Below, one piece after another: positions 16,936 to 18,205 of a stretch of 64,000 nt of DNA. The position numbers and the translations under genes were made by a program. The first letter of the stretch is position 1. The number at the start of each line of letters is the position of its first letter. The DNA comes from Gaiellaceae bacterium. Lineage in GTDB: Bacteria; Actinomycetota; Thermoleophilia; Gaiellales; Gaiellaceae. Below the pieces are notes generated by a model. That model was not told where the DNA came from. It saw only the letters and a list, made by a program, of their open reading frames with translations, and searched no databases. Location of the stretch: contig BPGK01000001.1 in NCBI GenBank assembly GCA_026002995.1, forward strand, positions 372,001 to 436,000, in the 5' to 3' direction.

Positions 16936-16964
16936 GAGGCTGAAGGTATGCTTCCGCGCTGCAC

Positions 16965-17010
16965 GCGCGATGAGGCCCGCGCCAACCGCCCGTCCGGGCT
17001 GATGGCTTCT
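16965..17010 (+). promoter_or_regulatory. Fluoride riboswitch (crcB motif)
   Basis: All helices of the fluoride aptamer can be drawn. P1: GAGGCC (16972-16977) with GGCTTC (17004-17009). Hairpin: GCCC (16988-16991), loop GTCC, GGGC (16996-16999). Pseudoknot: GCGCG (16965-16969) with CGCGC (16978-16982). The conserved GATGAGGCC start and CTGATGGC segment match the known crcB aptamer closely. It precedes the antiporter GTG at 17042, with GGAGG at 17030-17034. TACC (17010-17013) could pair with GGTA (17033-17036) and hide the ribosome site when the aptamer is empty. The RNA family is nearly certain; the switching scheme is inferred. Confidence 0.93.
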
Positions 17011-17041
17011 ACCCCGTGTTCCTTCGAGTGGAGGTACCAAG

Positions 17042-18205
17042 GTGGATGCCATCGAGCTCGCTGCCCTCCTCGTCGGCGTCGCGCTCCTCGCGAGCGTGAT
17101 CTCGGTCGAGCTCGGCGTGACCGTGGCGCTCGTCGAGCTCACGCTCGGCGTCGTCGTCGGGAACGTCTTCGAGGTTCAAAGCCAAGACTGGCTCGACTTC
17201 CTCGCCGCGTTCGCGTCGGTCGTCCTCACGTTCCTGGCCGGGATGGAGGTCGACCCGCACTACCTGCGACGCCGCGTCAAGGCCGCGTCGGCGATCGGCG
17301 TCGTCTCCTTCGCGGGTCCGTTCGTCGTGGCGTCGGCGACCGCGTACCTCGCCCTCGGCTGGTCGCCGAAGGCGTCTCTCATCGCCGGCACGGCGCTCTC
17401 CACGACCTCGCTCGCGGTCGTGTACGCGGTGCTCGTCGAACGCGGGCTGACGGACACGGCCACCGGCAAGCTGCTGATGAGCGCGACCTTTGTCACCGAC
17501 CTCCTGACCGCGATCGCGCTGTCCGCGATCTTCGTCCAGCCAAACCTGTGGTTCCCGCTGTTCCTGCTCGGGTCGCTGGCGCTCGTCGTCGTCCTTCCCA
17601 CGATCGCGCCGTGGTTCTTCGGGCGCTACGGCGATCGCGTCATCGAGCCCGAGATCAAGCTCGTGTTCGCTTCCCTGCTCGCGCTCATGGTGCTCGCGGA
17701 TCTCTCGGGCGGCCATGCGGTTCTCCCTGCGTTCGTGCTCGGGCTCGTGCTCAGCAACCACTACGCCGAGCACCGGGAGGAGCAGAAGCGCCTGCGCGTC
17801 GTCGCCTTCGCTCTTCTGACGCCGTTCTTCTTCAGCAAAGGCGGGCTCAACGTCTCGCTCGGAGCGGTCGCCTCGAATCTCGGGCTCTTGGTAGCGCTCT
17901 TCGCGGCGAAGATGGTTCCGAAGATCGTCCTCGTCTATCCGCTCGCGCGGCGGGCCGACCGGCCGCACGCGGTCTTCTCCACGCTGCTCATGAGCACGGG
18001 ACTGACATTCGGCACGATCGCCTCGTTGTACGGCCTGAATGCGGGGATCGTCGACCGAACGCAGTTCTCGCTTCTCGTCACCGTCGTCGTCCTCTCGGCA
18101 GTCGTGCCGACCGTGATCGCCGAGCGCTGGTTTCAGCCCGATGTCGACCGGCTGCGCCGACTCGGCCGTCGAGACGCGTACGGACGTGCCGAGGAGCTCG
18201 TGTGA
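17042..18205 (+). CDS. CPA-family cation/proton antiporter controlled by a fluoride riboswitch
   Basis: 387 residues, 11-12 transmembrane helices, monovalent cation:proton antiporter of the KefB/NhaP-like CPA superfamily. Visible: LELTLGVVVGNVF-like helix, FLAGMEVDP, a core with ATFVTDLLTAIALSA (the acidic Asp in the ion site), and LTPFFFSKGGLNVSL. It ends shortly after the last helix, without a TrkA-N domain. Fluoride riboswitches are known upstream of crcB, CLC-F channels and some antiporters, so this is likely a fluoride-stress transporter, either exporting fluoride or correcting the acid load from HF entry. GTG start at 17042 with GGAGG in front. Whether it moves fluoride itself cannot be told from sequence. 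Confidence 0.88.
   Translation: MDAIELAALLVGVALLASVISVELGVTVALVELTLGVVVGNVFEVQSQDWLDFLAAFASVVLTFLAGMEVDPHYLRRRVKAASAIGVVSFAGPFVVASATAYLALGWSPKASLIAGTALSTTSLAVVYAVLVERGLTDTATGKLLMSATFVTDLLTAIALSAIFVQPNLWFPLFLLGSLALVVVLPTIAPWFFGRYGDRVIEPEIKLVFASLLALMVLADLSGGHAVLPAFVLGLVLSNHYAEHREEQKRLRVVAFALLTPFFFSKGGLNVSLGAVASNLGLLVALFAAKMVPKIVLVYPLARRADRPHAVFSTLLMSTGLTFGTIASLYGLNAGIVDRTQFSLLVTVVVLSAVVPTVIAERWFQPDVDRLRRLGRRDAYGRAEELV

Follow-up and report, generated by a model that had tools for sequence, protein, structure and literature searches.

The 64,000-nucleotide window analysed here, from a Gaiellaceae bacterium (contig BPGK01000001.1, positions 372,001 to 436,000, forward strand), contains a fluoride-type aptamer that is separated by a linker of about 30 nt from the GTG start of a CPA2-type antiporter gene (Table 1). 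By translation, the genes flanking the antiporter are purA on the 5' side and purD on the 3' side, and these purine neighbours are unconnected with a role in fluoride response.

Table 1. Positions in the window of the aptamer, the leader elements and the antiporter gene
Feature	Positions	Strand	Evidence
Fluoride riboswitch aptamer (RF01734)	16957-17018	+	cmscan against Rfam: 40.3 bits (cut-off 34), E 1.1e-7, full length (1-64 of 64); sole match in the genome
First stem (P1) and loop	16965-16982 (16965-16969 with 16978-16982)	+	93% paired; both-side changes at 3/5 pairs (29 aptamers)
Pseudoknot 5' strand, GAGGC	16972-16976	+	partner GCTTC, 17005-17009; 97.9% paired; both-side changes at 3/5 pairs
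Second stem, GCCC/GGGC	16988-16999 (16988-16991 with 16996-16999)	+	95.7% paired; both-side changes at 3/4 pairs (29 aptamers)
Predicted unliganded (OFF) helix	17000-17054 (17000-17013 with 17041-17054)	+	minimum free energy fold, -43.5 kcal/mol
Pseudoknot 3' strand, GCTTC	17005-17009	+	partner GAGGC, 16972-16976; same pair counts as the 5' strand
Ribosome-binding site, GGAGG	17030-17034	+	7 nt 5' of GTG; read from sequence
CPA2-type antiporter, 387 aa	17042-18205	+	PF00999, E 1.6e-42; GTG start; T152, D153, K290, K294; STGLTFGT at 318-325

A covariance search with the Rfam fluoride model, the check that an earlier note on this DNA had proposed, gave a score above the gathering cut-off of that family; by cmscan, no other Rfam family reached its own cut-off in the window, and no second fluoride match was found in the genome (2.62 Mb, a single contig). 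Both stems, the pseudoknot and the GATG and TGATGG elements lie where the earlier note had placed them. Its statement that about 30 nt separate the aptamer from the start codon also stands; the end that it gave to the element, 17042, takes in the linker, the aptamer itself ending near 17018. Covariation was measured on 29 aligned aptamers, taken from related genomes and located 5' of antiporters and of other genes. At the 14 aptamer pairs, 95.6% of the alignment cells are standard pairs, and compensatory changes on both sides are found at nine pairs, a number equalled in 0 of 500 shuffles. Since neither the paired fraction nor the count of both-side changes is reached in any of the 500 shuffles or in any slid version of the alignment, the match is not due to chance. 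One might suspect a fortuitous match, or a decayed one that no longer functions, in a GC-rich genome when the score is only 6 bits over the cut-off and one pair of the pseudoknot is G-U, but the same placement in essentially all orthologues, the covariation and the single occurrence in the genome make this explanation extremely improbable. With two stems and a pseudoknot that carry compensatory changes, and with a 5' UTR position that is conserved among relatives, the aptamer is by sequence and covariation a true fluoride riboswitch, predicted to bind fluoride with Mg2+.

The predicted minimum free energy fold of the leader (z -2.26 against shuffles) places inside the OFF helix a hairpin in which CCTTC (17021-17025) pairs with the GGAGG of the ribosome-binding site. 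In this unliganded fold the 3' strand of the aptamer is paired with the GTG start region, rather than TACC with GGTA, the pairing through which ribosome access had been suggested to switch; the letters of that pairing are present, but neither folding nor a comparison across 27 leaders singles it out. Anti-Shine-Dalgarno duplexes in the 27 orthologous leaders had -12.7 kcal/mol when an arm was paired with its own site and -12.4 kcal/mol when the arms were swapped (p 0.56), and the change in ribosome-site pairing was that of shuffled controls (0.11 vs 0.12). A conserved anti-Shine-Dalgarno switch was thus rejected, as there is no excess over swapped or shuffled controls and nothing but the predicted folding of this one leader favours it. 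Promoter and terminator scans, which are weak in a GC-rich genome, found neither; a terminator of the usual kind is unlikely because a linker of about 30 nt is too short for it. From the spacing of 31-41 nt among orthologues, the lack of a detected terminator and the predicted fold, we infer that the antiporter is controlled at translation, and we infer the ON direction by analogy with known fluoride riboswitches. In the switching mechanism that the folding suggests, fluoride with Mg2+ would stabilise the pseudoknot, the 3' strand of the aptamer, held there, would no longer pair with the start region and would leave the GTG free, and the ribosome would then initiate on the transporter.

The target is a small CPA antiporter without an RCK domain, as had been stated earlier: PF00999 is the sole Pfam match to the open reading frame, and a profile search found no RCK domain in it. 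An AlphaFold model (pLDDT 86.6) has as its closest structure NapA, 5bz2 (Z 38.9, 3.8 A, 368 residues, 22% identity), and the predicted NapA-like fold and the PF00999 match place the protein in the CPA superfamily. It is a member neither of Fluc/CrcB (PF02537) nor of CLC-F (PF00654). The nearest NCBIfam models are those of the CPA2 subfamily and of KefC/KefB, all weak and under their cut-offs; with 38 bits against a KefC cut-off of 752, and with the RCK domain absent, it is not a KefB or KefC protein.

Association of the aptamer with this antiporter is found throughout its relatives. A search of 151 relatives yielded 28 extracted orthologues (at least 54% identity), 26 of which have an Rfam match directly upstream; in all but one of the 28 leaders, 31-41 nt lie between aptamer and start. 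The other two (L044 and L052) were missed by the Rfam search and have a variant aptamer that is visible by eye, in which GGTGAGG with CCAATGG replaces GATGAGG with CTGATGG. There an A and a U position appear to have changed jointly to G and C, presumably the positions of the tertiary A-U pair of the fluoride aptamer. Near paralogues of about 30% identity, no aptamer was among the matches listed.

Relatives of the antiporter are encoded in at least 580 stretches of the genome collection. The best 80 come from Actinomycetota, Rokubacteria, Chloroflexi, Bacillota (Thermosyntropha lipolytica), Planctomycetota, Acidobacteria and Bacteroidales among the bacteria, and from Methanoperedens, Methanobacteriaceae, Thorarchaeota and Micrarchaeota among the archaea. 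A covariance model made from local aptamers finds an aptamer no more than 300 nt upstream of the start in 70 of these 80 homologues; seven more have one farther upstream, at one locus the match runs into the called start codon, and the last two have none. This linkage is not built in, because the 80 homologues were retrieved by protein motifs only. Rfam independently matches 13 of 16 sampled homologue aptamers and confirms the aptamer at all four plasmid-borne members. Among 251 genomes of Chloroflexota, an aptamer lies directly upstream of 21 of 30 antiporters, compared with about 28 of 116 CrcB-bearing genomes (hand count). On the strength of this family-wide linkage in sequence, the clade is one of fluoride-dedicated transporters, while the ion that they carry is a matter of prediction, and the specific role in fluoride stress that the earlier note had assigned to the transporter is supported. 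The implied rarity of such a target did not hold, as Na+/H+ antiporters are, according to PMC11139923 (citing Baker et al. 2012), the second commonest class linked to fluoride riboswitches, next after exporters. The association with the riboswitch was thus already known; the new finding is the placement of this antiporter in a single pan-prokaryotic clade.

Members of this clade have an ion site of their own. In an alignment with NapA, T152, D153 and K294 fall at D156, D157 and K305. The features of a NapA-type electrogenic Na+/H+ antiporter, a double aspartate in TM5 and PRGE, are lacking. Paralogues of the same class have D-D, E-D or A-D and a single lysine or arginine, in most cases together with PRGE, whereas the fluoride-linked clade has T-D, an extra lysine (K290) one turn before K294, and STGLTFGT in place of PRGE. 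All 79 full-length members have T152, K290 and K294, and 78 of them have D153; these four residues were not in the retrieval pattern, to which STGLTFG did belong, so that the constancy of the latter is biased. Two alphaproteobacterial plasmid members have N-D, and the first position is therefore T or N, not strictly T. In a FastTree tree the 79 members separate from nine paralogues with support of 0.96. Judged by these sequence characters, the antiporter is part of a single, well-delimited pan-prokaryotic clade whose ion site is altered. The paralogues nearest to the clade in the tree, on G076 contig 138 and G150 contig 47 (L196 and L200), are of another CPA2 subgroup with A-D, arginine for lysine, and ATSLSF or ATSLPF in the penultimate helix.

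Neither Fluc/CrcB (PF02537) nor CLC (PF00654) had a match in the host genome, where the antiporter is the sole detected dedicated fluoride-response gene. According to a published survey (PMC11139923), an exporter is present in more than 85% of bacteria. In the class Thermoleophilia, CrcB was found in 4 of 36 genomes that carry the antiporter and in 61 of 115 that do not (p 5e-6, Fisher, shared ancestry ignored); within the family of the window the exclusion reaches only p 0.027 by the same test, again with shared ancestry ignored. Fifty carrier genomes spread over phyla had CrcB above the cut-off in six and a CLC in eight. This shortage of CrcB does not come from missing sequence, because ribosomal protein S19 was present in 45 of the 50. 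The signature of CLC-F is GREGT/V; none was recognised in the CLCs of the 50 carriers, most of which show GREGP and two no motif, and the possibility that these are hidden CLC-F proteins was rejected. In Chloroflexota the exclusion was not significant (CrcB in 11 of 30 carriers and 104 of 221 non-carriers, p 0.33, Fisher, shared ancestry ignored), and antiporter and crcB share a locus in one genome (G393) as well as on a Klebsiella plasmid. CrcB exclusion is therefore present in some lineages and lacking in others.

We consider it likely that a fluoride ON riboswitch controls here a CPA2-type transporter of the fluoride-stress clade, which, as the last step of the switching scheme, would reduce the cytosolic fluoride burden. 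Direct extrusion of fluoride is a serious alternative to the published view, pH homeostasis, because exporters are rare in many carriers and the ion site is altered. As a single mode of action, proton-coupled extrusion of fluoride itself is the one that the sequences lead us to favour, if tentatively, ahead of a raising of the pH and of a Kef-like acidification. The fuller proposal, possible though doubtful, is that the clade forms a third class of prokaryotic fluoride exporters, proton-coupled and of the NhaA fold, which would replace Fluc/CLC-F in many bacteria and archaea. Two lysines (K290, K294), hydroxyls (T152, S318, T319) and one carboxylate (D153) would then compose its anion site. 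Against fluoride export, all characterised CPA relatives move cations to our knowledge, and N-D is the pattern of electroneutral cation exchangers. The occurrence of antiporter and CrcB at the same loci is likewise as expected of a helper and not of a substitute.

An ordinary cation/proton exchanger could be such a helper if it extruded protons and restored the cytosolic pH after entry of HF, the riboswitch adding pH homeostasis to the response. Antiporters linked to fluoride riboswitches have been interpreted in this way in the literature (PMC11139923), and the interpretation agrees with the NapA-like fold, with the retention of D153 and K294, the NapA-type lysine, in 78-79 of 79 members, with the existence of N-D variants and with the presence of crcB beside the antiporter in some operons and plasmid islands. 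A helper should, however, accompany exporters, yet carriers tend to be without them, both in Thermoleophilia and among the 50 genomes sampled; on grounds of physical chemistry, a higher internal pH would trap more of a weak acid such as fluoride unless it were exported; and the ion site differs from that of NapA at several positions. We regard this explanation as rather unlikely. An exchange of K+ for H+ that acidifies the cytosol, as by a Kef-like protein, would lessen the pH gradient so that less fluoride accumulates, which suits a cell without an exporter and would also account for the rarity of exporters in carriers. The CPA2 and KefC/KefB models nearest to the antiporter lean weakly the same way, but the antiporter has no RCK domain, the ion site of KefC is Q-D, and acidification spends the proton gradient of the cell, so that this explanation seems improbable. 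The title of a yeast study (reference 88 in PMC11139923) does name intracellular acidification as an adaptation to fluoride. A literature search, preprints and subscription papers excluded, found no paper testing this antiporter clade.

Some members of the clade are carried on plasmids of Enterobacteriaceae, within fluoride-resistance islands. On the conjugative IncFIB/IncHI1B plasmid NZ_CP017986.1 of Klebsiella pneumoniae, the island (L205, 8702-17455) comprises a fluoride riboswitch, a clade antiporter, uspA and two mutS-like genes, with crcB, a phosphoglycerate mutase gene and eno on the opposite strand. A universal stress protein gene stands directly 3' of the plasmid-borne antiporters (L205, L206 and L208), which suggests that its product is their partner; none follows the antiporter of the window.

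Fluoride riboswitches also lie 5' of GTPase-like proteins with a dynamin-type P-loop as judged by eye (L165 8760-8822, L172 5844-5905, L173 5637-5701) and, with names given from sequence only, of MutS-like ATPases (L167 5456, L168 6799) and of a cysteine-rich CPLCR protein (L165 3081, L168 6616). One genome (G077 contig 15, 270-295 kb; L165/L166) has five fluoride riboswitches and two antiporter copies; some of the aptamers are placed back to back on opposite strands, and likewise at L168. Elsewhere (L172; G126 contig 16, 40813-41903) the antiporter is broken by several stops and still has an aptamer-like match on its 5' side.

With these results, what was loosely listed as Na+/H+ antiporters linked to fluoride riboswitches becomes a family that a residue signature defines. 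Should the clade export fluoride, many bacteria and archaea thought to be without an exporter would turn out to possess one, and a halide transporter would join a fold known until now mainly for cations; should it not, it would show how cells without an exporter survive fluoride.

The aptamer is of the RF01734 kind, the crcB motif or fluoride riboswitch (Weinberg 2010, Baker 2012), and it shares with that family the two stems, the pseudoknot, GATG and TGATGG, the 5' UTR position and a score above the cut-off; it differs in having a CPA2 antiporter as target, no terminator found and a short linker of 30 nt. With Fluc/CrcB and CLC-F the antiporter often has the riboswitch and the stress in common, whereas the proteins are unrelated. 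KefC/KefB K+/H+ exchangers share with it a CPA2-type core and weak profile similarity, but the antiporter lacks RCK and has other ion-site residues. NapA of Thermus thermophilus (4bwz, 5bz2) is the best structural match: its D157 and K305 are kept as D153 and K294, while D156 is replaced by T (N in a few), the invariant K290 is extra, and PRGE of the penultimate helix is STGLTFGT in the clade. The mobile island of the Klebsiella plasmid resembles the FRM operon of E. cloacae (PMC5533749), with the antiporter in addition. The gene of the window most probably belongs to the riboswitch-linked Na+/H+ antiporters of PMC11139923 (citing Baker et al. 2012), being of the same Pfam family and under the same regulatory association; in that source the set is an annotation class, whereas the antiporters described here are one clade with its own ion-site signature, found in many genomes without known exporters.
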